Of a DNA stretch of 64,000 nucleotides, positions 20,796-60,613 are shown piece by piece. The notes under the pieces are model-generated. The model ran no database searches, was not told the DNA's origin, and worked only from the letters and a program-made list of their open reading frames with translations. Where the stretch lies: NCBI RefSeq assembly GCF_001678675.1, contig NZ_LZRN01000009.1, positions 62,001 through 126,000 on the forward strand. The letters run 5' to 3'. This stretch comes from Gelidibacter algens (lineage in GTDB: Bacteria; Bacteroidota; Bacteroidia; Flavobacteriales; Flavobacteriaceae). Position 1 is the first letter of the stretch. Every line of letters begins with the position of its first letter. Made by a program: the position numbers and the translations under genes.

Positions 20796-21212
20796 TTAGT
20801 GTCCGCTACACTTTTCACATAACCCTTTGATTACCAAATTTACATTTTCTGCCAAATAGCCTTCTGGTAAATTGATGTGTGGGATTTTGTATTCCGTTAA
20901 ACAAACGGTTTCATCACAGTTATTACAGTAAAAATGTAAATGCAGGTCTTGTTCTAATTCACAATTGCAATTTTCTTCACAAACAGCATATTTAATTGTT
21001 CCTGTGCCATCGTCAATTTGGTGGACAATCCCGTTTTCCTCAAAGGTCTTTAAGGTTCTATATAAAGTAGTCCTTTCAGAATTGTCGAAATATTCCTCGA
21101 TGTTTGTGAGGCTTACTGCAACTTTCTTTTGCAACAGGAATTTTAAAACCAACAATCGCATAGCAGTTGGCCTAACAGTTCTTGATTCAAGAGTTTTCTC
21201 CAATTTGTCCAT
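20796..21212 (-). CDS. Fur-family metalloregulator
   Basis: The 138-residue protein has the Fur winged helix (RPTAMRLLVLKFLL, then SERTTLYRTLKTFEENGIVHQI) and a dimerisation half with the HLHFYCNNCDETVCL segment and a terminal CEKCSGH, giving two CxxC pairs for a structural zinc. Several extra Cys at ENCNCEL add to the metal-binding look. It probably senses a metal (zinc or a related divalent ion) and represses the surrounding efflux or an uptake system. It starts three bases after the PII-like gene stop, so both are in one transcript within the metal operon. The exact metal cannot be read from sequence. Confidence 0.92.
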   Translation of the reverse strand: MDKLEKTLESRTVRPTAMRLLVLKFLLQKKVAVSLTNIEEYFDNSERTTLYRTLKTFEENGIVHQIDDGTGTIKYAVCEENCNCELEQDLHLHFYCNNCDETVCLTEYKIPHINLPEGYLAENVNLVIKGLCEKCSGH

Positions 21213-39810: not shown

Positions 39811-40111
39811 AGTCCACGAAAATAAATAATTTAAAGACCAAAAGAAAACTTTTTATTGAATTTCGTCTGTACCGATTCCAAAAGGAAGTAAATTATAATT
39901 TAAACCCCATAAAATAAAATATAAGCTATAATTGAAATACTTTTTCGTAAACAACCTTTTCAGAAATACAATAAAAGTAATAATTACATTAATTTTTAAA
40001 CAAGTGTAAATTTTGCCAATAATTACTATTATTTGCGTAAAGATTACTTTATTGATTAATTTGAAATCGATGACATAATTTAAATAGCGATTATTATTTA
40101 AATCATGCTTT
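39811..40111. other. AT-rich gap of 301 bp without a supported gene
   Basis: The stretch separates the efflux cargo from the mobilization genes. It is very AT-rich with short A and T runs, holds no ORF of convincing composition, and no clear -7 element or hairpin was found. It probably contains the promoter for the His-rich gene at 39373-39810. Confidence 0.5.
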
Positions 40112-49713: not shown

Positions 49714-49745
49714 TTTGAACCTGAAATATATTTCCCTTACTTTTG
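49714..49745 (+). promoter_or_regulatory. Promoter of feoAB (-33 TTTG, -7 TACTTTTG)
   Basis: TTTG at 49714-49717, a 20-bp spacer and TACTTTTG at 49738-49745 fit the Bacteroidota promoter consensus in sequence and spacing. It lies 27 bp upstream of the FeoA start. A candidate DtxR operator follows at 49751-49766. Confidence 0.75.
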
Positions 49746-49750
49746 CTTCT

Positions 49751-49766
49751 TTAAAATCAATCTAAA
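49751..49766. promoter_or_regulatory. Candidate DtxR-type operator before feoA
   Basis: TTAAAA-TCAA-TCTAAA keeps the exact TCTAAA half-site and four of six bases of the left half of the 53187-53202 palindrome. It lies just after the promoter, over the expected transcription start, where a repressor would block initiation. Confidence 0.4.
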
Positions 49767-49771
49767 TAAGC

Positions 49772-49999
49772 TTGCAACTTACAGTCGCACATTTAAAACG
49801 AGGGCAACGCGGTATTATTACTGACGTATCGTCTATTTATATCCCGTTAAAACTTTTAGAAATGGGCTGTTTACCGGGCAATTATGTGGAGCTAGTGCAA
49901 GTAGCACATTTTTCTGATCCGATGTATCTCAACATCAATGGCACCCACTTGGCCATCAGAAAGGAAACTGCACTTCATATTTTTATAGAGATCTTATAA
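49772..49999 (+). CDS. feoA: FeoA, ferrous iron transport accessory protein
   Basis: The 75-residue SH3-like protein has the family core LKRGQRGIITDV, LLEMGCLPGN and the C-terminal AIRKETALHIFI. It begins with a TTG codon at 49772, in line with the family start, and no ATG is available. FeoA aids FeoB-driven ferrous iron uptake from the cytosolic side. Its TAA is immediately followed by the feoB ATG, so the two are co-translated. Confidence 0.92.
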   Translation: MQLTVAHLKRGQRGIITDVSSIYIPLKLLEMGCLPGNYVELVQVAHFSDPMYLNINGTHLAIRKETALHIFIEIL

Positions 50000-52099
50000 A
50001 TGAGTAAACAAATCAATGTTGCCTTAATAGGAAATCCCAATACAGGTAAAACTTCAGTTTTTAATGCACTCACCGGATTGAACCAAAAGGTAGGAAACTA
50101 CCCGGGTATTACCGTTGAAAAAAAAGAAGGCATCTGTAAACTTCCTCGTGGTGTAAAGGCTCATATAATTGATTTGCCCGGAACTTATAGTTTGAATGCC
50201 TCTTCTTTAGATGAAAATGTGGTCATAGAATTATTGCTTAATAAAAACGATAAGGATTTTCCAGATGTGGCCGTTGTGGTGAGTGATGTAGAAAACCTGA
50301 AACGTAATCTACTCCTTTTTACACAAATTAAAGATTTAGAGATTCCGGCTATTTTGGTCATCAACATGGCTGACAGGATGCGCTACAAGGGTATTTCTTT
50401 AGATATTCCTCATTTGGAAGAACAGCTAAACACTAAAATTGCACTCGTAAGCACCCGTAAAAAAAATGGAATTGTTGAATTAAAAGAACTGATTTCCAAT
50501 TATAAAGACTTATCCACAACGCCTTGTATGAATGCGTCTGAAATTGATAGGGAATATTTTGACAATTTACGAAAAGCGTTTCCTAACCAATTGCTGTACA
50601 AACTTTGGTTGGTTATTACCCAAGATGTCAATTTTGGAAAGACCGATAGAAATGAAATTGATGCCGTTGCCAATTTTAAGACCAAAACCAAAGCCGATTT
50701 AAAACGCCTACAGCAAAAGGAAACCATTAAGCGGTATCAATTTATAAACAACACGCTTAAAAAAGGGCAAACCATAGATTTAAATACGGCCAAGGACCTA
50801 CGGATTAAATTGGACCGTATTTTAACACACAAAGTTTGGGGCTATGTTATTTTCTTTGTCATTTTATTGACCATTTTTCAAGCCATTTATGATTGGTCGA
50901 GCGTGCCAATGGATTTCATTGATTCTTCATTCGTATCATTGAGTGAATGGACCAAGAACGGACTTCCTGAAGGCGCTTTTACCAGTTTATTAGCTGAAGG
51001 GATTATTCCAGGATTGGGTGGGATTGTTATTTTTATACCACAAATCGCATTTTTGTTCCTTTTTATTTCAGTACTAGAGGAAAGCGGGTATATGAGCCGC
51101 GTCGTTTTTTTAATGGACAGAGGCATGCGACGGTTTGGACTGAGCGGAAAAAGTATTGTACCCCTAATTTCTGGGACGGCTTGTGCCATTCCCGCTATTA
51201 TGGCTACCCGAAATATTGAAAACTGGAAAGAGCGCCTAATTACCATTCTTGTCACGCCCTTTACCACGTGTTCCGCACGCTTGCCTGTGTATCTGATTAT
51301 TATTTCGTTGGTCATTCCTGAGGGTCGGTTTTTAGGATTAGGCTATCAGGCCATGACCCTGATGCTCTTGTATTTAATTGGTTTTGGAGCCGCTTTAGTA
51401 TCAGCCATGATCTTAAACAAAATCCTCAAAATCAAAAGCAAAACCTTTTTTGTGGTAGAAATGCCAAATTATAAGCTGCCATTGTTCAAAAATGTCGTGC
51501 TGACCGTTATTGAAAAAACAAAAGCTTTCGTTTTTGGTGCCGGAAAGATCATTTTGGCAATTTCCATTATCCTATGGTTCTTGGCATCTTATGGTCCGGG
51601 AGATGATTTTAACAAAGCGGAGGAAATTATCAGTACTGAATACGCCAACCAAAACCTAACCGAAGATGAGGTAAATGAACATGTCGCTTCCTATAAATTA
51701 GAGCACTCCTTTCTTGGCATTACGGGTCGCGCCATTGAACCAGCTATCAGACCTTTGGGGTACGATTGGAAAATTGGCATCGCCCTTGTGAGCTCTTTTG
51801 CTGCCCGCGAAGTATTTGTAGGCACCTTGGCAACAATTTACAGTGTTGGTAGTGATGATGAAGAAACCATTAAAAACCGAATGGCCGGAGAGGTAAATCC
51901 TATTTTGGGCGGACCTTTGTTTACATTTGCCTCAGGAATTTCTTTGTTGCTATTTTACGCCTTTGCCATGCAGTGCATGAGTACGCTAGCCATTGTACAA
52001 CGGGAAACAAATTCATGGAAATGGCCGATACTACAGCTTGTTATTATGAGTGGTTTTGCGTATCTTATAGCATTGATTGCCTTCCAGCTTTTGAAGTAG
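50000..52099 (+). CDS. feoB: FeoB ferrous iron transporter
   Basis: The 699-residue protein has an N-terminal G domain with GNPNTGKTS (10-18), the G3 motif DLPG (near 57) and NMAD (near 121), a GDI-like region, and the membrane half with Gate motifs (GTACAIPAIMATR, FTTCSARLPVYLIII) of about eight to ten spans. It imports ferrous iron through the inner membrane under low iron. It forms an operon with FeoA and is followed by a small Cys-bearing membrane protein at 52161. Full length. Confidence 0.97.
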   Translation: MSKQINVALIGNPNTGKTSVFNALTGLNQKVGNYPGITVEKKEGICKLPRGVKAHIIDLPGTYSLNASSLDENVVIELLLNKNDKDFPDVAVVVSDVENLKRNLLLFTQIKDLEIPAILVINMADRMRYKGISLDIPHLEEQLNTKIALVSTRKKNGIVELKELISNYKDLSTTPCMNASEIDREYFDNLRKAFPNQLLYKLWLVITQDVNFGKTDRNEIDAVANFKTKTKADLKRLQQKETIKRYQFINNTLKKGQTIDLNTAKDLRIKLDRILTHKVWGYVIFFVILLTIFQAIYDWSSVPMDFIDSSFVSLSEWTKNGLPEGAFTSLLAEGIIPGLGGIVIFIPQIAFLFLFISVLEESGYMSRVVFLMDRGMRRFGLSGKSIVPLISGTACAIPAIMATRNIENWKERLITILVTPFTTCSARLPVYLIIISLVIPEGRFLGLGYQAMTLMLLYLIGFGAALVSAMILNKILKIKSKTFFVVEMPNYKLPLFKNVVLTVIEKTKAFVFGAGKIILAISIILWFLASYGPGDDFNKAEEIISTEYANQNLTEDEVNEHVASYKLEHSFLGITGRAIEPAIRPLGYDWKIGIALVSSFAAREVFVGTLATIYSVGSDDEETIKNRMAGEVNPILGGPLFTFASGISLLLFYAFAMQCMSTLAIVQRETNSWKWPILQLVIMSGFAYLIALIAFQLLK

Positions 52100-52479: not shown

Positions 52480-53136
52480 TTAAACCTCTTTCAAAAACAA
52501 ATTTTTACCTACAGTTTGAGAGACCATCAGCTCTCTTCCATTTAATCTAATTTTAATGGAATGGTCAAAAGGCTCCTTATGCACAATTTCCATCCTTGTT
52601 CCTAAAGAAATCGCATTGTTATCTAAATATTTTAGAAAATCAACCGAACTGTCATTAACACCAACGCACATATACACGATACCTACTTTTGCACTGGCCA
52701 AACTTAATTTTTCAATGTGAATGAACTTACCAGATTTGTCCGGAATGGGATCGCCGTGAGGGTCATGTGTTGGAAAGCCCAAAAACGCATCCAATTCATC
52801 GATGAGTTTTTGAGACTTGATGTGCTCCAATTGCTCGGCTACATCATGAACCTGATCCCAAGTAAAGTTCAGTTTCTCAACCAAAAAGACTTCCCATAAA
52901 CGGTGCTTTCTAATAATATTAACGGCCACACGCTTTCCATCCTCGGTTAAACTGACCCCTTGATACTTTTTGTAGTTGGCATAGTTTTTTTCTGCCAGTT
53001 TCTTTATCATATCAGTTGCAGATGAGGCTTTGGTGCTCATAGCCTCGGCCAATGCATTGGTATTGACCGTCTCTGATCCTTGTTTTCCCAAGTGAAAAAT
53101 GGCCTTTATGTAATTTTCTTCTGTTAGTGTGATCAT
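52480..53136 (-). CDS. DtxR/MntR-family metal-dependent repressor
   Basis: The 218-residue protein has an N-terminal winged HTH (EENYIKAIFHLGKQ, TKASSATDMIKKLAE), a dimerisation domain with metal-ligand-type residues (RKHRLWEVFLVEKL, HDVAEQLEHI) and a C-terminal SH3/FeoA-like domain (about 140-218). Such repressors bind Fe(II) or Mn(II) and shut off uptake genes. It is divergent from a TonB receptor, with a palindromic operator (53187-53202) between. The likely regulon includes itself, the TonB/ABC cluster and feoAB. Confidence 0.95.
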   Translation of the reverse strand: MITLTEENYIKAIFHLGKQGSETVNTNALAEAMSTKASSATDMIKKLAEKNYANYKKYQGVSLTEDGKRVAVNIIRKHRLWEVFLVEKLNFTWDQVHDVAEQLEHIKSQKLIDELDAFLGFPTHDPHGDPIPDKSGKFIHIEKLSLASAKVGIVYMCVGVNDSSVDFLKYLDNNAISLGTRMEIVHKEPFDHSIKIRLNGRELMVSQTVGKNLFLKEV

Positions 53137-53153: not shown

Positions 53154-53161
53154 CAAATATA
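53154..53161 (-). promoter_or_regulatory. -7 promoter element of the DtxR-family gene
   Basis: Minus-strand TATATTTG, a perfect TAnnTTTG, lies 18 bp before the ATG at 53136. The palindromic operator at 53187-53202 sits at about the -33 region of this promoter, so the regulator may control itself. Confidence 0.65.
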
Positions 53162-53186: not shown

Positions 53187-53202
53187 TTTAGACTTATCTA
53201 AA
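53187..53202. promoter_or_regulatory. DtxR-type operator palindrome (TTTAGACTTATCTAAA)
   Basis: A perfect inverted repeat with TTTAGA and TCTAAA arms and a CTTA centre matches the DtxR/MntR box form (TTTAGG-N4-CCTAAA and variants). It lies between the divergent promoters of the regulator and the TonB receptor, upstream of both -7 boxes (53154-53161 minus, 53211-53218 plus). Confidence 0.7.
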
Positions 53203-53210
53203 TATATATT

Positions 53211-53218
53211 TATATTTG
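53211..53218 (+). promoter_or_regulatory. -7 promoter element (TATATTTG) of the TonB receptor
   Basis: TATATTTG fits TAnnTTTG and lies 17 bp upstream of the TTG start at 53236. The palindromic operator lies just ahead of it, so a bound repressor would occlude the -33 region. Confidence 0.65.
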
Positions 53219-53235
53219 TATAAAAATTATTTCAA

Positions 53236-55530
53236 TTGAAACTAATAACTACTCTTCTTTTAATTTCTTTTGTAGCTCAGGGGCAACAAACTTACGAGGT
53301 GAGTGGTCAGGTGACTTCTGAAAAAAAATCACTTCCCTTTGCAAATGTCTATCTCGAAAGTAGTTCAAAAGGCATCATGACTGACAGCAATGGTAATTAT
53401 AAACTCACCAAGATTGAACCAGGAACGTACACCATAATCGCTTCCTTTGCAGGCTATAGAACACAACAGCAGAAATTTACAATCACTGATAAAAACAAAA
53501 CCTTACACTTTAATCTTGATAATGAAGCTCTTGACGAAATTGTCATAACAGGAACACGAACTGAAAAGCGCAAAACGGATTCTCCTGTGATTGTAAACCT
53601 GATCAACAGTCAAACTCTTGAACAAGTTGTTGCAACAGACCTCTCTGATGGTTTGCGCTTCCAACCTGGTTTGCGGGTGGAAACTAATTGCCAAACCTGC
53701 AATTATACACAAATCAGAATGAACGGACTTCAAGGTGGCTATTCTCAAATTCTTGTTAATGGACGTCCAATTTTTAGTCCGTTGACAGGCCTTTATGGTT
53801 TGGAACAAATTCCGGTGAACATGATTGAGCGTATTGAAGTGGTTCGTGGTGGTGTTTCTGCACTATATGGCTCAAGTGCTATCGGCGGAACTGTTAATGT
53901 AATTACAAAAATTCCTAAGCAAAACAATTACAGTGTAGGCTATACTTTTGAATCCATTGATGGAGACGCTACCCAAAATATCACCAACGGTAACGCTACT
54001 GTAGTCAGCAAGGATTATAACTCAGGTGCTAATTTCTTTGTAAGCAATCGCAAGCGGACTGCCTATGATGCCAACGGCGATAATTTTTCAGAACTGCCAG
54101 AATTAAAGGACAATTCTTTCGGGGTGAACGCCTTTTATTTGCCTACCGAGAATTCGAAGTTGGAATTGAGCTTGAGCAGTCTTTTTGAATATCGTTATGG
54201 CGGCGAGATTGTAGACAAACCAGCGTATTTGGCCCAACAATCTGAAGAACGATACCATCATGTGCTCATGGCAAGTTTAGATTATCAAATTAATTTTAAT
54301 GATGATAAAAGCGCATTAATTCTTTACTATGGCGGCCAACGTACAGATCGGGACCATTATACAGGTATTATTCCTGATGACAGTTTTGATCAACAAGCCT
54401 TTTTTGCTGATCCTCCTTACGGCACCTCTGAAGTTACAACCCATCAGGGCGGTGCGCAAATCAACCAAAAAATAGACGATTTTATAGTAGGAAAAACGGT
54501 TCTCACAGCTGGTACGGAATTTGTTTATGACGCTGTTTTTGATGAGATCACCGCCTATAATTATTTGATCAATCAAACCACGCGCAATCTTGGAGTATTT
54601 GTTCAAAATGATTGGGACATTTCAGAAGCATTGAACTTTCTTTCCGGATTCAGAATTGACAAACATAACCTTGTGGACCATGCTATTTTAAGTCCAAGGT
54701 TATCACTATTGTATAAATTAAAAAAAAACGCCCAATTCCGTTTAGGTTGGGGCACCGGGTTTAGAGCGCCACAAGCTTTTGATACAGATTTGCATATTAC
54801 CTTTGCTGGTGGTGGGGTTTCAAGAATTACACTTGCCGACGACTTATTTGAGGAACGCTCCAATAGCTACACGGCTTCCATCAATTATGATAATGCAACT
54901 GAGCACTTCATTGCCGGCTTTACTTTGGAAGGCTTCTACACCCAGCTTAGAGATGCTTTTTATCAAGCCCCAATGGGTGAGGATGCCTTTGGACAACGCT
55001 TTGAAAAACGGAATGGTAGCGACGCCACTGTAAAAGGTTTTACTTTGGAAGCACGTGCAAATTTTGATTATGTGTTTGAAGTAGAAGCTGGTTTCACATT
55101 ACAGTCAAGTTTATTTGACGAAGCTGTTGAAAATATTATAGGATTAGAATCAAAGCGCGAATTTTTGCGTACCCCAGATGATTATGGCTATGCAACATTG
55201 ACCTACACACCGACTAAAAAATTCAATTTGAGTGCCAACTTTGTTTACACCGGGCAAATGGACATTGCTCATTTTGCTGGAGAGGATACCGGTCAAAATG
55301 TTGATGAATATTACAAAACCCCATCTTTTACCGAATTGAGTTTAAGAGCAGGTTACAATTTCGATATTACAAGAGTAAGCACCAATTTAGAAGTTTTTGG
55401 AGGGATCAAAAACATAACCAACAGTTACCAAGACGATTTTGATATTGGAAAAAACAGGGATAGCAATTATGTATATGGACCTAGAGCACCACGATCCGTG
55501 TTTGTTGGTCTCAAAATAAAATCGCTTTAA
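53236..55530 (+). CDS. TonB-dependent outer membrane receptor for a metal or chelate
   Basis: The 764-residue protein starts at TTG 53236 (no ATG nearby) with a signal peptide (about 1-16). A carboxypeptidase-like N-terminal domain (about 18-105, SGQVTSEKKSLPFANVYLES) leads to the plug (GTRTEKRKTDSPV, RNGLQ-like QIRMNGLQGGYSQILVNG, IERIEVVRGGVSALYGSSAIGGTVNVITK), and the beta-barrel runs to the C-terminal aromatic end. The CQTC pair at about 150-153 in the plug is seen in metal/heme-linked receptors. It takes up a bound metal or complex by TonB energy. First gene of the uptake cluster, divergent from the DtxR-type regulator. Confidence 0.95.
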   Translation: MKLITTLLLISFVAQGQQTYEVSGQVTSEKKSLPFANVYLESSSKGIMTDSNGNYKLTKIEPGTYTIIASFAGYRTQQQKFTITDKNKTLHFNLDNEALDEIVITGTRTEKRKTDSPVIVNLINSQTLEQVVATDLSDGLRFQPGLRVETNCQTCNYTQIRMNGLQGGYSQILVNGRPIFSPLTGLYGLEQIPVNMIERIEVVRGGVSALYGSSAIGGTVNVITKIPKQNNYSVGYTFESIDGDATQNITNGNATVVSKDYNSGANFFVSNRKRTAYDANGDNFSELPELKDNSFGVNAFYLPTENSKLELSLSSLFEYRYGGEIVDKPAYLAQQSEERYHHVLMASLDYQINFNDDKSALILYYGGQRTDRDHYTGIIPDDSFDQQAFFADPPYGTSEVTTHQGGAQINQKIDDFIVGKTVLTAGTEFVYDAVFDEITAYNYLINQTTRNLGVFVQNDWDISEALNFLSGFRIDKHNLVDHAILSPRLSLLYKLKKNAQFRLGWGTGFRAPQAFDTDLHITFAGGGVSRITLADDLFEERSNSYTASINYDNATEHFIAGFTLEGFYTQLRDAFYQAPMGEDAFGQRFEKRNGSDATVKGFTLEARANFDYVFEVEAGFTLQSSLFDEAVENIIGLESKREFLRTPDDYGYATLTYTPTKKFNLSANFVYTGQMDIAHFAGEDTGQNVDEYYKTPSFTELSLRAGYNFDITRVSTNLEVFGGIKNITNSYQDDFDIGKNRDSNYVYGPRAPRSVFVGLKIKSL

Positions 55531-55541
55531 ATTTGAATGAC

Positions 55542-56012
55542 ATGTGGAGAATTTGTGTTACTATTTTTGTCTTTACATGGGTCATGACCGCTTTTTCACA
55601 ACAGGAAAAGTCGGTACAATGGTTAACTTTTGAACAACTGTCAGTTGCTCTTCAAAACCATCCAAAAAAAGTATTTATTGATTTTTATGCCGATTGGTGT
55701 GCTCCCTGTTTAAAAATGCAACGAGAAGTTTTTACGGATTCAAAGGTCATTGAAGTACTCAACAAAAATTATTATGCAGTCCAAATGAATGTTGAAACTA
55801 CAGACACCATTCAGTTTGGGAAGCAAATTTTCGTCAATAAACGCATTAACAGACGTAATCCTATCCACGAAATTGCCCTACTAATGGCAAGCCAGAAAAA
55901 TAAACCATTTTCTTTACCTGCGCTCGTTTTTTTAGATGAGAATTTTAAACCAACAGCACGCTACTTTCAATATTTAAATACCGATCAATTTTTGGAGATC
56001 ATCACCTATTGA
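55542..56012 (+). CDS. Exported thioredoxin-like protein
   Basis: The 156-residue protein is started at ATG 55542 (MWRICVTIFVFTW, signal peptide); the TTG nine bases earlier is less likely. A thioredoxin-like fold with DFYADWCAPCLKMQ carries the CAPC redox pair, and LPALVFLDENFKPT resembles the family's cis-Pro stretch. It probably maintains thiols of the periplasm for the neighbouring receptor and binding protein. It follows the receptor by 11 bp. Confidence 0.88.
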   Translation: MWRICVTIFVFTWVMTAFSQQEKSVQWLTFEQLSVALQNHPKKVFIDFYADWCAPCLKMQREVFTDSKVIEVLNKNYYAVQMNVETTDTIQFGKQIFVNKRINRRNPIHEIALLMASQKNKPFSLPALVFLDENFKPTARYFQYLNTDQFLEIITY

Positions 56013-56057: not shown

Positions 56058-56065
56058 TACTTTCG
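56058..56065 (+). promoter_or_regulatory. -7-like promoter element (TACTTTCG)
   Basis: TACTTTCG differs from TAnnTTTG by one base and lies 18 bp upstream of the binding-protein ATG. A candidate operator half-site follows at 56075-56090. Confidence 0.45.
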
Positions 56066-56074
56066 TAACTTATA

Positions 56075-56090
56075 TTTAGACTTATGAAAA
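56075..56090. promoter_or_regulatory. Candidate DtxR-type operator over the start codon
   Basis: TTTAGA-CTTA-TGAAAA equals the first ten bases of the 53187-53202 palindrome exactly and matches four of six in the right arm. It spans the ATG at 56084, where binding could hinder transcript elongation. Confidence 0.4.
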
Positions 56091-56995
56091 AAATAGTTTT
56101 CATTCTATTAACTTTTGTATTCATTTCTGCTTGCAAAGATTCTGAACCTAGCAACGGCAACCTCAATATCGTTACCACAACCACCATGATTACAGATTTG
56201 GTAACACATATTGGTGGTGATAAATTGAATATTCAAGGGTTGATGGGAAGTGGTGTAGATCCGCATTTATATAAAGCCAGTGAAGGTGATGTCTCTAAAT
56301 TGGCAAATGCCGATTTGATTTTTTATGGAGGCCTGCATTTGGAAGGAAAACTTGTAGAAGTTTTTCAAAAAATGGAAAGCCAACATATTAAAACTATAGC
56401 TGTTTCTGACGCATTGGACACCAAAACATTGATTGGCTCTGAATATTTTGCGTCTAATTATGATCCACATATTTGGTTTGATGTCAACAATTGGGAATTG
56501 ATTACCAATTTTGTAGTTCAAAAACTATCTGAAGCAAATCCAGAAAACAAAGCCCTATTTGAAGAGAACGGCAAAACTTATCTTGAGGAATTAAAATCGT
56601 TGGACGCAGATATCAAATCTATCATCAGCACACTTCCAGAAGAGAAAAGAATATTGGTCACTGCACATGATGCCTTTAATTATTTTGGACAGGCCTACGG
56701 ATTTGAAGTGGTAGGTTTACAAGGATTGTCAACTGCCACAGAAGCTGGTGTACAAGATGTTCAAAATTTGGCTACTTTTATTATCGATAAAAAAGTAAAA
56801 GCCGTTTTTGTTGAAAGCTCAGTACCAAAACGTACCATTGAAGCACTTCAGGCTGCGGTGAACTCCAAAAATCACAATGTAGAAATTGGAGGCACTTTAT
56901 ATTCTGATGCTTTAGGAAATGCCGGTACTCCTGAAGGCACTTATATAGGCATGTTTCGGTATAATGTCAACACCATTGTGAGTGCGCTTAAATAA
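56084..56995 (+). CDS. Metal ABC transporter substrate-binding lipoprotein (TroA/MntA type)
   Basis: The 303-residue protein has a lipobox FISAC (Cys17), then a cluster A-I binding fold: VTTTTMITDLVTHI, GVDPHLYKAS (first His ligand), DPHIWFD (second ligand, about 126-132), VTAHDAFNYFG (third) and a late Glu/Asp in FVESSV. No long His-rich loop of the ZnuA kind is present, so it may favour manganese or iron over zinc. It captures the metal in the periplasm and hands it to the permeases encoded downstream. Confidence 0.93.
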   Translation: MKKIVFILLTFVFISACKDSEPSNGNLNIVTTTTMITDLVTHIGGDKLNIQGLMGSGVDPHLYKASEGDVSKLANADLIFYGGLHLEGKLVEVFQKMESQHIKTIAVSDALDTKTLIGSEYFASNYDPHIWFDVNNWELITNFVVQKLSEANPENKALFEENGKTYLEELKSLDADIKSIISTLPEEKRILVTAHDAFNYFGQAYGFEVVGLQGLSTATEAGVQDVQNLATFIIDKKVKAVFVESSVPKRTIEALQAAVNSKNHNVEIGGTLYSDALGNAGTPEGTYIGMFRYNVNTIVSALK

Positions 56996-57341
56996 AGATG
57001 GCAGTGTCAAGTCATAGTGGGCAGTAACCTAGGAGGTTTAACAAAAATAATACAATTAATTATTTGAAGCTATTCCTGCTATCCGCTATATCTTTTTTGA
57101 AGAAAAATCAAAAAAGGATGCCGCTCCTATCAGGGCTAAAACCTGTGCTATCGGTAAAGCTCAAGTGACGAAAAGTCTCTAGCAGTCGTGAAAATTTTAA
57201 TACCAATTACGCCCATATTTTCAGGGAACTAGTGAATCTGTGAAAATTCGTGAAATCCGTGTCAAAATTTTTGGAAGTCAAAGTGAGATGCCCTAAAGTA
57301 CATAGTTTTTACTTAATTTGAGACCAATAAAAGCCATATTG
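56996..57341. other. Gap of 346 bp between the binding protein and ATPase genes
   Basis: No ORF of good composition is present. It holds short dispersed repeat motifs such as GTGAAAATTCGTGAAATCCGTG (several GTG/CGTG units, 57238-57264) like ones seen at 58215-58230, and TTTTTTGAAG/AATCAAAAAA inverted bits near 57090-57115. A TTAATTTG near 57313 could be a weak -7 box for the ATPase gene. Confidence 0.4.
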
Positions 57342-58106
57342 ATGGATGATAACATGAAAGAATCAAATGCATCAACCGCATTTGCCGTTAAAGTTGATGA
57401 CTTGACAGTGGCTTACAACTATAAGCCTGTGCTTTGGGATATAGATCTTGAAATTCCTGAAGGTGTGCTGATGGCCATTGTTGGCCCAAATGGTGCTGGA
57501 AAATCTACCTTGATCAAAGCCATTTTGGGTATTCTCAAACCTATTGCAGGAAGTGTCAGTATTTATGGAAAACCCTATAAAAAACAGCGTTCGCTTGTAG
57601 CTTACGTACCACAAAAAGGAAGTGTGGATTGGGATTTCCCCACCATTGCGCTAGACGTGGTGATGATGGGTACTTATGGAAGTTTGGGATGGATCAAACG
57701 CCCTGGAGCAAAAGAAAAGAAAGCAGCCTTGGAAGCCTTGGAAAAAGTGGGCATGCTCCCCTTTAAAAACAGACAGATCAGCCAGCTTTCTGGCGGACAA
57801 CAGCAACGCATTTTTTTGGCAAGAGCATTGGTACAGGACGCCTCTATCTATTTTATGGATGAACCCTTTCAAGGTGTAGATGCTACTACCGAAATTGCCA
57901 TTATCAATATTTTAAAAGAATTGCGAAAAGAAGGAAAAACAGTTGTAGTTGTGCATCATGATTTGCAAACGGTTCCAGAATATTTTGATTGGGTGACTTT
58001 TTTGAACGTTAAAAAAATCGCTACAGGTCCGGTTAAAGATATTTTTAATGATGATAACTTGACGAAGACTTATGGAATTAATTATAAGGTGAGTGTGCAG
58101 AAGTAG
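57342..58106 (+). CDS. Metal ABC transporter ATP-binding protein
   Basis: The start is ATG 57342 (MDDNMKES), because the upstream TTG at 57318 lies within a promoter-like element; ATG 57354 is another option. The 254-residue ATPase has Walker [12 protein letters not shown]-loop [13 protein letters not shown], the signature LSGGQQQR, Walker [13 protein letters not shown] and the H-loop VVHHDL. The Q-loop context is typical of Mn/Zn/Fe ABC importers (family TroB/ZnuC). It powers the two permeases that follow. Confidence 0.94.
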
Positions 58107-58332: not shown

Positions 58333-59460
58333 ATGAATTTACAAGAGTACTTTTCTTTAGTTTTCAGTGATTACACCTTGCGAACCATCACGCTAGGCAC
58401 CGCTATTTTAGGCGCTGTCACCGGAATGCTCGGTAGTTTTGCGGTGCTGCGGAAACAAAGTTTGCTAGGAGACGCCATTTCGCATGCCGCCCTACCAGGA
58501 ATTGCTCTGGCTTTTTTAATCACCGGCGCAAAAGATAGCAACACGTTATTGCTTGGTGCTTTGGTCAGTGGACTTATTGGCACCTTTTGGATCAGGGGCA
58601 TCATCAGTAAAACACACCTAAAATCAGATACCGCTTTAGGACTCATCCTTTCCTTATTCTTCGGATTCGGGATGCTATTGCTCACCTTTATCCAAAAACA
58701 ACCCAACGCAAATCAAGCGGGATTGGACAAATATCTCTTTGGACAAGCCGCTACATTAGTGGAAAGCGACGTGTGGTTGATGGCTATAGTAACCGGAATT
58801 TGTGTGGTGGTCATGCTGTTGTTTTGGAAGGAATTCAAATTGCTGCTCTTTGATGCAGATTACACTAAAACTTTAGGCTTCAATACCAAATTTATTGATA
58901 TTTTAATCACAACCTTTATTGTGTTGGCCATTGTTTTAGGCCTGCAGACGGTGGGGGTGGTACTTATGAGCGCTATGTTATTGGCACCTGCCGCAGCGGC
59001 AAGGCAGTGGACAAATAGCCTAAGCAAGATGGTGCTTTTAGCTGCAATTTTCGGGGCCTTCTCCGGTGTTTTTGGAACAGCCATCAGCGCCAGCCAAAAC
59101 AACCTATCAACAGGTCCAGTGATTGTTATTGTCGCTTCCGTATTTGTGGTCTTCTCATTCATTTTCTCACCCAGTCGTGGATTGTTGTTTCGTCAAATCC
59201 GGTTTATCAATAACCGAAGAGATTTGGAACTTCAAAAAACGCTCTCCTTCATGTATCGCATCGCAGAGACCCATGACGATATTTCACATCCTCACGCCAT
59301 TAAAATATTGAACAATTTTCAAGGGTTTACAAAAAAAACCCTTCAGAAATTGGTCAACAAAAACTATGTAACCATTGATGGTACTATGTGGAGCTTAACA
59401 GAAGAAGGTTTTGAAACCGCAGCCAATTTATATAACCAAAACTTCAAAGCAGATGTCTAG
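58333..59460 (+). CDS. Metal ABC transporter permease 1 with C-terminal winged helix
   Basis: The 375-residue protein has about eight spans with the ABC-3 permease pattern (GSFAVLRKQSLLGDAISHAALPGI, VGVVLMSAMLLAPAAAARQW). A C-terminal cytosolic extension of about 85 residues (LQKTLSFMYRIAETHDDISHPHAI, NNFQGFTKKTLQKLVNKNYV, WSLTEEGFE) reads like a DtxR-type winged helix. Such an extension is longer than in TroC-type permeases and might sense metal. Its stop overlaps the next permease start by eight bases (ATGTCTAG). Confidence 0.92.
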   Translation: MNLQEYFSLVFSDYTLRTITLGTAILGAVTGMLGSFAVLRKQSLLGDAISHAALPGIALAFLITGAKDSNTLLLGALVSGLIGTFWIRGIISKTHLKSDTALGLILSLFFGFGMLLLTFIQKQPNANQAGLDKYLFGQAATLVESDVWLMAIVTGICVVVMLLFWKEFKLLLFDADYTKTLGFNTKFIDILITTFIVLAIVLGLQTVGVVLMSAMLLAPAAAARQWTNSLSKMVLLAAIFGAFSGVFGTAISASQNNLSTGPVIVIVASVFVVFSFIFSPSRGLLFRQIRFINNRRDLELQKTLSFMYRIAETHDDISHPHAIKILNNFQGFTKKTLQKLVNKNYVTIDGTMWSLTEEGFETAANLYNQNFKADV

Positions 59461-60613
59461 TGCACAATTGGAAATACAACTCATCGCGAGTATAGTGGCC
59501 GTGGCCTGTGCCATTCCAGGTACTTTTTTGGTGCTCCGTAAAATGGCCATGATCAGTGATGCCATTAGTCATTCCATATTACCAGGAATTGTGGTTGGTT
59601 TTTTTATTACCCAAGACCTCAACTCCCCACTTCTCATCTTATTGGCCGCTCTAACTGGAGTGATCACCGTAGCTTTAGTAGAACGGATTCAAAAAACAGG
59701 ATTGGTAAAGGAGGATACTGCTATTGGATTAGTATTTCCTGTCTTATTTAGTATAGGCGTCATCATGATCGCCAAAAATGCAAACGACGTGCATTTAGAC
59801 ATTGACGCCGTGTTATTGGGTGAATTAGCTTTTGCACCCTTTGACCGGCTCACGGTTGGAGGAACAGACATTGGCCCAAAATCATTATGGGTTATTGGCA
59901 CTATTTTGCTCATCACCATTGCGCTGCTGATTGCATTTTTTAAAGAATTAAAAGTGAGCACTTTTGATGCTGGTTTATCAGCCTCTCTCGGATTTTCACC
60001 AATCATTATCCATTATGGACTGATGACCGTTGCTTCTGTTACCACTGTTGGTGCTTTTGATGCGGTTGGTGCAATATTGGTGGTAGCCTTGATGATTGCC
60101 CCAGCGGCCTGTGCATATCTACTGACCACCGACTTAAAAAAAATGCTCGGGCTCGCCATATTTTTCGGAGTGTTTAGCGCCATTGCTGGATACTGGGTAG
60201 CACATTGGTTGGATGCCTCAATTGCTGGATCAATTACGACGACCCTTGGAGTGGTGTTTTTTATCATTTACTTATTTGCGCCAAGTAAAGGACTTATAGC
60301 CGTGACATACAGAGAAAAGCAACAACGTATTGAAGTTTCTTTACTGACGTTTTTACTGCACCTTAAAAATCATAGCGAAGAACGGGAAAGACACGTCAAT
60401 CATCTCAACGAACATATCAATTGGCAAAAAGTGAGAAGCAAGACTGTTTTGGATCTAGCACTTAAAAACAACATGATTCTTATTAACAATAGCATCGTTT
60501 CCCTTACTGAAAAAGGAGATGCGTTTACGTCTCAAGCCATCAACTATATCGTTACCAATGAGGATGCCCAAATTGAAGATATGAAAGAAGATTTCTTTTT
60601 GTTCAGGGGTTAG
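59453..60613 (+). CDS. Metal ABC transporter permease 2 with C-terminal winged helix
   Basis: Start at ATG 59453 (MSSAQLEIQL), within the tail of permease 1, giving 386 residues. It has the ABC-3 permease pattern (PGTFLVLRKMAMISDAISHSILPGIV, GAFDAVGAILVVALMIAPAACAYLL) and a C-terminal extension (about 300-386, LLTFLLHLKNHSEERE, IVSLTEKGDAF) that looks like a winged helix, diverged from permease 1's. The two permeases form the membrane channel as a heterodimer with the ATPase and TroA-like protein. Confidence 0.92.
   Translation: MSSAQLEIQLIASIVAVACAIPGTFLVLRKMAMISDAISHSILPGIVVGFFITQDLNSPLLILLAALTGVITVALVERIQKTGLVKEDTAIGLVFPVLFSIGVIMIAKNANDVHLDIDAVLLGELAFAPFDRLTVGGTDIGPKSLWVIGTILLITIALLIAFFKELKVSTFDAGLSASLGFSPIIIHYGLMTVASVTTVGAFDAVGAILVVALMIAPAACAYLLTTDLKKMLGLAIFFGVFSAIAGYWVAHWLDASIAGSITTTLGVVFFIIYLFAPSKGLIAVTYREKQQRIEVSLLTFLLHLKNHSEERERHVNHLNEHINWQKVRSKTVLDLALKNNMILINNSIVSLTEKGDAFTSQAINYIVTNEDAQIEDMKEDFFLFRG

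Follow-up and report, generated by a model that had tools for sequence, protein, structure and literature searches.

Which genes does a perfect palindrome serve when it lies between a DtxR/MntR-type regulator gene and a divergently transcribed TonB receptor gene, in a neighborhood that also holds feoAB and an ABC importer? The question is raised by a 64,000-nt stretch of Gelidibacter algens DNA (here called the window), which belongs to a genome assembly of 4.5 Mb in 140 contigs. A preliminary description proposed that feoAB, the TonB receptor, and the ABC importer are jointly controlled by a DtxR-type protein, which would act at this palindrome and at two weaker echoes of it, one at feoA and one at the start of the binding-protein gene. 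Comparison with related loci established the position of the palindrome, its conservation, symmetry, and promoter spacing, its co-variation with the regulator, and its linkage to importers. We consider it highly probable that the palindrome is the single main operator of the adjacent MntR-like repressor; the regulator, the TonB receptor, and the ABC importer would form one unit, and feoAB would lie outside it, with a Fur box.

The palindrome and its neighborhood

The genes run in the order feoA-feoB (+ strand), regulator (- strand), and then, on the + strand, TonB receptor, thioredoxin-like protein, binding protein, ABC ATPase, and two ABC-3 permeases. feoA (49772..49999, +; TTG start assumed) was identified by its Pfam FeoA match and feoB (50000..52099, +) by TIGR00437 (498.6 bits). 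The 218-aa regulator (52480..53136, -), whose closest named relatives are from Gelidibacter (Flavobacteriaceae), has the DNA-binding and metal/dimerization domains of its family (PF01325, 3.4e-14; PF02742, 1.7e-32) and a C-terminal FeoA-like domain (PF04023). The divergent transcript opens with the TonB-dependent receptor (53236..55530, +; Pfam plug and barrel), followed by the thioredoxin-like protein (55533..56012, +; Pfam) and a metal-binding lipoprotein of the ZnuA/TroA family (56084..56995, +). This lipoprotein matches PF01297 (6e-79) and can be aligned over its length to its closest solved structure, TroA (1toa, 4.6e-83), as expected of a cluster A-I binding protein of the TroA/PsaA type. 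Downstream are an ABC ATPase of the Mn/Fe type (57339..58106, +; Pfam and NCBIfam profile matches) and two permeases that match PF00950 (58333..59460 and 59453..60613, both +), with C-terminal tails of about 90 aa, which is conserved, and about 107 aa, respectively. The tails, encoded at 59188-59457 and 60290-60610, have a faintly winged-helix-like look and recall chlamydial YtgCR, a permease-repressor fusion; hhalign compared the first tail with the regulator at a probability of 31.6, and its predicted fold has a mean pLDDT of 61 (low confidence).

The predicted operator, TTTAGACTTATCTAAA (53187-53202), is a 16-bp, even-centered palindrome with the arms TTTAGA and TCTAAA around CTTA, and both 6-bp arms are perfect, just as the preliminary description had reported for the space between the divergent regulator and TonB receptor genes. 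It is the only exact TTTAGA-N4-TCTAAA in the window, where matches with up to three mismatches number 105 against a chance mean of 86 (5 of 100 shuffles reach 105). The genome-wide search for this pattern, which had been suggested as a check, found five exact sites in the organism's own genome and, with at most one mismatch, 69 sites against 60 for a reversed-pattern control, so that by count it is uninformative and the number of sites alone proves nothing. A tighter consensus with up to two mismatches was likewise not enriched in this genome (18 sites against 19 in the control). The four further exact sites (L001, L003, L004, and L005), two inside open reading frames and two outside predicted frames, gave no metal-uptake lead.

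Promoter boxes of the -7 type flank the palindrome at set distances. One, TATATTTG, lies 8 nt off the palindrome toward the TonB receptor (53211..53218, +), and another copy of TATATTTG lies 25 nt off it toward the regulator (53154..53161, -); both were identified by sequence and spacing. Among the 198 loci examined, 116 have a TAnnTTTG box on the divergent side, and in 102 of these it begins 8 to 9 nt past the palindrome (base-shuffled divergent-side sequence yields a box in 16 loci). On the regulator side of the same 198 loci, the box lies 24 to 28 nt from the palindrome in 151 of the 189 loci that have one. Such spacing would place the palindrome over the receptor promoter's -33 region and abutting the regulator promoter, a layout that suggests repression in both directions. 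PMC5609570 mentions the -7/-33 type of promoter for this bacterial group.

Importers adjoin the palindrome in most relatives. The survey covered 151 loci that were long enough, all from clade 1 (regulators about 48% or more identical to that of the window). An ABC or ZIP importer adjoins in 131 of them: an ABC importer on the divergent side in 62, defined by a binding protein within 4.5 kb; an ABC importer behind the regulator in 23; and a ZIP gene behind the regulator in 46. The other 20 loci have no importer in the expected place, with a ZIP gene elsewhere in 4 and neither type in 16. The divergent gene itself encodes a TonB receptor in 113 of the 151 loci, a Phenol_MetA_deg-type barrel in 5, a binding protein in 2, and another or unidentified product in 31. 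These tallies indicate that importers have been rearranged yet stay attached to the palindrome. At two Bizionia loci (L060 and L084), the binding-protein gene starts no more than 350 nt from the regulator, with the palindrome between them.

Individual loci illustrate other arrangements. At L046-L048, L240, L245, and L249-L251, a Phenol_MetA_deg-type outer-membrane barrel (assigned by Pfam on L046 and L240 only) replaces the TonB receptor between the regulator and the binding protein. At L112, L113, L117, L118, L120-L122, and L124, which gave no ABC binding protein, a ZIP gene lies directly behind the regulator; these loci are among the 46 of 151.

Co-variation of operator and regulator

The palindrome is strongly conserved in front of the regulator gene. 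Across the window and 80 named genomes (81 loci), the best site within 200 nt upstream is exact in 64, has one mismatch in 15, and has two in 2, while base-shuffled versions of these upstream regions contained no exact site and a one-mismatch site in 0.65 loci on average. A larger set comprised 223 regulator loci (214 distinct), made up of the named loci and most of the matches listed by a regulator homologue search; its counts rest on the matches listed, which are part of all matches. Perfect 6-bp arms with a spacer of 4 occur in 157 of the 223 upstream regions, compared with 39.6 expected from dinucleotide shuffles. The odd spacers 3 and 5 fall below expectation (24 and 30 of 223, with about 42 expected), and even spacers other than 4 are also raised, as expected from concentric symmetry.

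The sequence of the palindrome changes with the identity of the regulator. TTTAGN-N4-NCTAA is present within 160 nt upstream in 198 of 210 clade-1 loci, leaving 12 without it. Regulators that are 36 to 48% identical to the window's have GTTAG-N6-CTAAC in 6 of 7 loci, and regulators below 36% identity (clade 2) have TTTAAG-N4-CTTAAA in 6 of 6. A second search, for which a clade-2 regulator was the query, found exact TTTAAG-N4-CTTAAA in 30 of 30 loci; the two clade-2 sets overlap in four genomes and together hold 32 distinct genomes. The palindromes of these alternative clades are also 16 bp long and even-centered. The commonest residues at positions 35 to 43 of the recognition helix are T-K-[AP]-S-S-x-T-D-M in clade 1, I-S-N-A-A-A-T-D-M in clade 2, and x-S-P-A-S-V-N-N-M in the third group. 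A palindrome that changes along with the clade of its regulator behaves as that regulator's operator should, though the loci are related, and operator classes that track clades amount to about two switches and so to few independent events. None of the three operators is found in 13 of the 223 upstream regions, in some of which the regulator is perhaps not the first gene or its start is misplaced.

Elsewhere in the loci, exact TTTAGA operators are rare, with 4 of 95 lying away from the regulator or receptor; over the distance tested, none was found at feoA or at the binding protein. Some one-mismatch variants differ at the sixth arm base, giving TTTAGG or CCTAAA, which resemble the DtxR boxes TTAGG...CCTAA. 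A palindromic operator at the promoter of the regulator or of the importer is typical of the DtxR/MntR family. The palindrome at 53187-53202 is a genuine site and appears to be functional.

The echo at the binding-protein start is of a different kind. Here, 56075-56085 repeats 11 palindrome bases, as the preliminary description had partly seen, and the left arm, TTTAGA (56075..56080, +), lies at -9 of the binding protein, behind an internal -7 type box, TACTTTCG (56058..56065, +). The right side of the site reads ATGAAAA, that is, the start codon and a lysine codon, so that the left arm alone is independent evidence and the proposal of a second operator stays unproven. A matrix trained on relatives gives this site 8.12 bits and the palindrome 22.6; the site ranks second in the window, on a par with one at 39995 that is unrelated (8.11), and falls under the lowest training site (12.75). 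What does stand is a conserved half-site. TTTAGA occupies -9 of the binding protein in 35 of 83 clade-1 loci and occurs elsewhere in -60..-1 just 6 times, and a promoter-like box, TTTAGTA-N(1-2)-TT[AC], precedes the binding protein in 48 of the 83 loci, among them all 35 with the half-site. At -9 of other metal genes, TTTAGA was seen at none except 1 of 211 regulators. The notion that TTTAGA is a general feature of start sites was rejected: it lies at -9 in 38 of 1124 long open reading frames and at about 33 binding-protein starts. A regulatory role for the conserved half-site before the binding protein is likely but unproven.

The feoA element and Fur

Does the same operator system extend to feoAB? 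The model of the preliminary description, in which a single operator family of varying strength puts feoAB, the TonB receptor, and the ABC importer under one DtxR-type protein, draws on real features of the locus. The regulator adjoins feoAB in many relatives (in 104 of 151 loci, with an FeoB of more than 60% identity), the half-site TCTAAA is common to the palindrome and feoA (49761-49766), and on the operator matrix the feoA site is the eighth best of the window. The conserved element at feoA is nevertheless one base longer than had been noted. It is a Fur-box-like 17-mer, TTTAAAATCAATCTAAA (49750..49766, +), directly after a -7 type box for feoAB identified by sequence, TACTTTTG (49738..49745, +), and its spacer is 5 bp long. 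The window copy has TTTAAA and TCTAAA around ATCAA, with an A in the left arm in place of the G of the Fur box; most feoA leaders likewise have A for G at one arm base.

Across 108 feoA leaders, TTTARA/TYTAAA arms stand at a spacer of 5 in 91 and of 4 in none, so that the symmetry is odd-centered, and none of the three regulator operators was found in any of the 108. The element is the same in kind at 4 of 4 clade-2 loci, where the regulator's own operator is TTTAAG-N4-CTTAAA. In the organism's own genome, the short pattern TTTAGA-N5-TCTAAA is not enriched (56 sites, compared with 101 for the control); the feoA motif, taken as a 20-nt pattern, was found at 61 places in 37 of 59 relative genomes and nowhere in the control. 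Thirty loci with this 20-nt motif comprise 16 before feoA, 7 at an AraC-type gene of one family, 1 at an iron-type binding protein, and 6 without an assigned gene. Twenty-one genomes have no clear regulator homologue among the matches listed; 20 of them carry the Fur-type motif, and feoA was the gene at 7 of 20 loci examined; one of the 21 (G123) has a marginal regulator match and none with the clade-2 query.

The element also has a published counterpart. In two reports on Riemerella anatipestifer, a member of the same bacterial order, the Fur box is given as ATTTAGAATTATTCTAAAT and Fur bound promoters in gel shifts (PMC5609570), and feoAB is described with a Fur box and iron/Fur regulation (PMC10434265). 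That box is odd-centered, TTTAGA-N5-TCTAAA, and lies in the feoAB leader; the window copy differs in its TTTAAA left arm and is known here from sequence. The two sources also contain observations that are less easily placed. In PMC5609570, feoAB is among the iron-induced genes, a direction that is hard to reconcile, and is missing from the table of Fur boxes consulted; PMC10434265 reports feo as upregulated under Mn excess, the opposite of repression by a Mn-loaded regulator. In Porphyromonas gingivalis, the MntR orthologue PgMntR binds the promoter of the Mn-type feoB2 and not that of the iron-type feoB1 (PMC4805248), a choice that fits the separation of feoAB from the importer in the window.

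A spacer of 5 and never 4, constancy at clade-2 loci, presence before feoA in 7 of the genomes that gave no clear regulator homologue, recurrence of the element at further iron or heme loci, and the promoter choice of PgMntR (PMC4805248) together make the single operator family very improbable. The reading of the feoA site as a weak operator of the regulator, with its spacer shifted, was likewise rejected, given the 0 of 108 leaders with spacer 4 and the genomes in which no clear regulator homologue turned up. Joint control by the DtxR-type protein is thus upheld for the regulator, TonB receptor, and ABC importer by conservation, co-variation, promoters, and linkage; for feoAB it is contradicted by the symmetry of the element, its match to the Fur box, its constancy, and the genomes in which no clear regulator homologue was found. 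The simplest reading is that the feoA element is a Fur box, with feoAB most likely under Fur. Since feoA carries a different site, one that matches Fur, the metal importer and feoAB are probably under separate control.

Could a Fur-family protein also bind the palindrome itself, with the DtxR-type regulator a mere passenger? The half-site TTTAGA is identical to that of the Fur box, and the genome has two Fur-family genes that might encode such a protein: the main Fur gene (93 bits), on a different contig from the window, and the gene at 20877-21176. We regard this as very unlikely, as the palindrome has a spacer of 4 rather than 5, follows the clade of the DtxR-type regulator while the Fur box stays constant, and has one-mismatch arm variants (TTTAGG/CCTAAA) that resemble DtxR boxes. 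The second Fur-family gene, inside the window on the - strand, scores 31 bits.

The Fur-type element outlines a wider iron regulon. It was seen at an AraC-type regulator gene beside a HemA-like gene, at a DUF4856 lipoprotein gene (in a related form), and at iron-type binding proteins; examples are L128 (1498-1515), L008 (1490-1526), L203, L386, and L396. The AraC-type family was assigned by reading and Pfam, and the HemA-like neighbor is that of the window's genome. Upstream of the DUF4856 lipoprotein gene (L008), a second near-match of the tighter palindrome consensus has flanks (TCTAAATAAGC) that resemble the feoA element; this site may be better read as Fur-type.

The metal, the mechanism, and wider meaning

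MntR has the primary metal ligands Asp8/Glu/Glu/His, and DtxR has Met10/Cys/Glu/His. In the window regulator, the ligands Glu101, Glu104, His105, and His78 are invariant and resemble those of Mn sensors, whereas residue 8 is Asn in 10 of 10 aligned proteins from two clades and departs from the Asp or Met of characterized members. The closest solved chains are 5zr4, ScaR (3hrs), and 8pvt, and SloR is also among the closest relatives; ScaR and SloR are Mn sensors. The top NCBIfam model for the regulator is the manganese MntR (NF047407), at 149.1 bits against a cut-off of 350, and for this reason we call the regulator MntR-like only. Manganese is our best guess for the metal.

The same circuit with a regulator that senses iron or zinc, and hence a ferrous-iron or zinc uptake unit, is somewhat unlikely. 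Among NCBIfam names, the best one for the binding protein belongs to a zinc protein, AztC, although the score is below the cut-off; position 8 has the unusual Asn; and TroA-like binding proteins and ZIP can serve Zn, Mn, or Fe. On the other side, Glu101 stands where the iron-sensing DtxR has Cys, MntR is the top NCBIfam model even if below its cut-off, the closest solved relatives include the Mn sensors, and iron is already served by the Fur box system.

Compared with known systems, the regulator shares with DtxR/MntR/SirR repressors a winged-helix domain, a metal/dimerization domain, and a C-terminal domain, along with a palindrome at or beside the promoter; it differs in its Asn at ligand 8 and in having a TonB receptor in the unit. 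SirR, too, adjoins a metal ABC importer (sir-box; PMC1764749), and the Corynebacterium diphtheriae DtxR box is similar, TTAGG-N4-CCTAA, by our reading of the sites tabulated in PMC524172. The arms of the flavobacterial operators differ from DtxR-type boxes by ending in A (TTTAGA) or AAG (TTTAAG) and not GG. PgMntR is likewise a Bacteroidota MntR with a FeoA-like C-terminal domain that acts at a Mn transporter promoter and not at the iron feoB1; it differs in having two FeoA domains, a Cys in the metal site, and an FeoB2-type target instead of an ABC/ZIP importer with a TonB receptor (PMC4805248).

From here on we infer: that the regulator binds and represses, which metal it senses, and that the importer is transcribed from the promoter of the TonB receptor. 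When metal (most likely Mn) is plentiful, a regulator dimer would bind the palindrome, cover the -33 part of the TonB-receptor promoter, and abut the regulator promoter, thereby repressing transcription in both directions. The repressed units would be the regulator itself and the series from the TonB receptor through the thioredoxin-like and binding proteins to the ABC importer. At the internal promoter before the binding protein, the half-site may provide a second, weaker grip. feoAB would be separate, with a Fur box in its leader that overlaps or just follows the presumed transcription start.

A literature search, to which subscription journals were mostly inaccessible, found no published account of this operator in flavobacteria. 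We tentatively propose a broader picture, which is possible but somewhat less than an even bet. Flavobacterial MntR-like repressors may fall into at least three DNA recognition classes (TTTAGA-N4-TCTAAA, TTTAAG-N4-CTTAAA, and GTTAG-N6-CTAAC) that are tied to recognition-helix residues 35 to 42, with geometry fixed; they may control TonB-dependent or porin-like outer-membrane entry paired with an exchangeable ABC or ZIP importer, and, as TTTAGA is shared with the Fur box, a one-base change in spacing may be what separates the iron and manganese circuits.

Half-site echoes should be read with caution and not as a single regulon. Two metal circuits could be kept apart by one half-site whose spacer is either 4 or 5, and the natural regulator-operator pairs offer material for a recognition code. 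For metal uptake in marine flavobacteria, the analysis provides an operator and a regulon that are concrete and testable, and it predicts that manganese, or some other divalent metal, has a receptor in the outer membrane.
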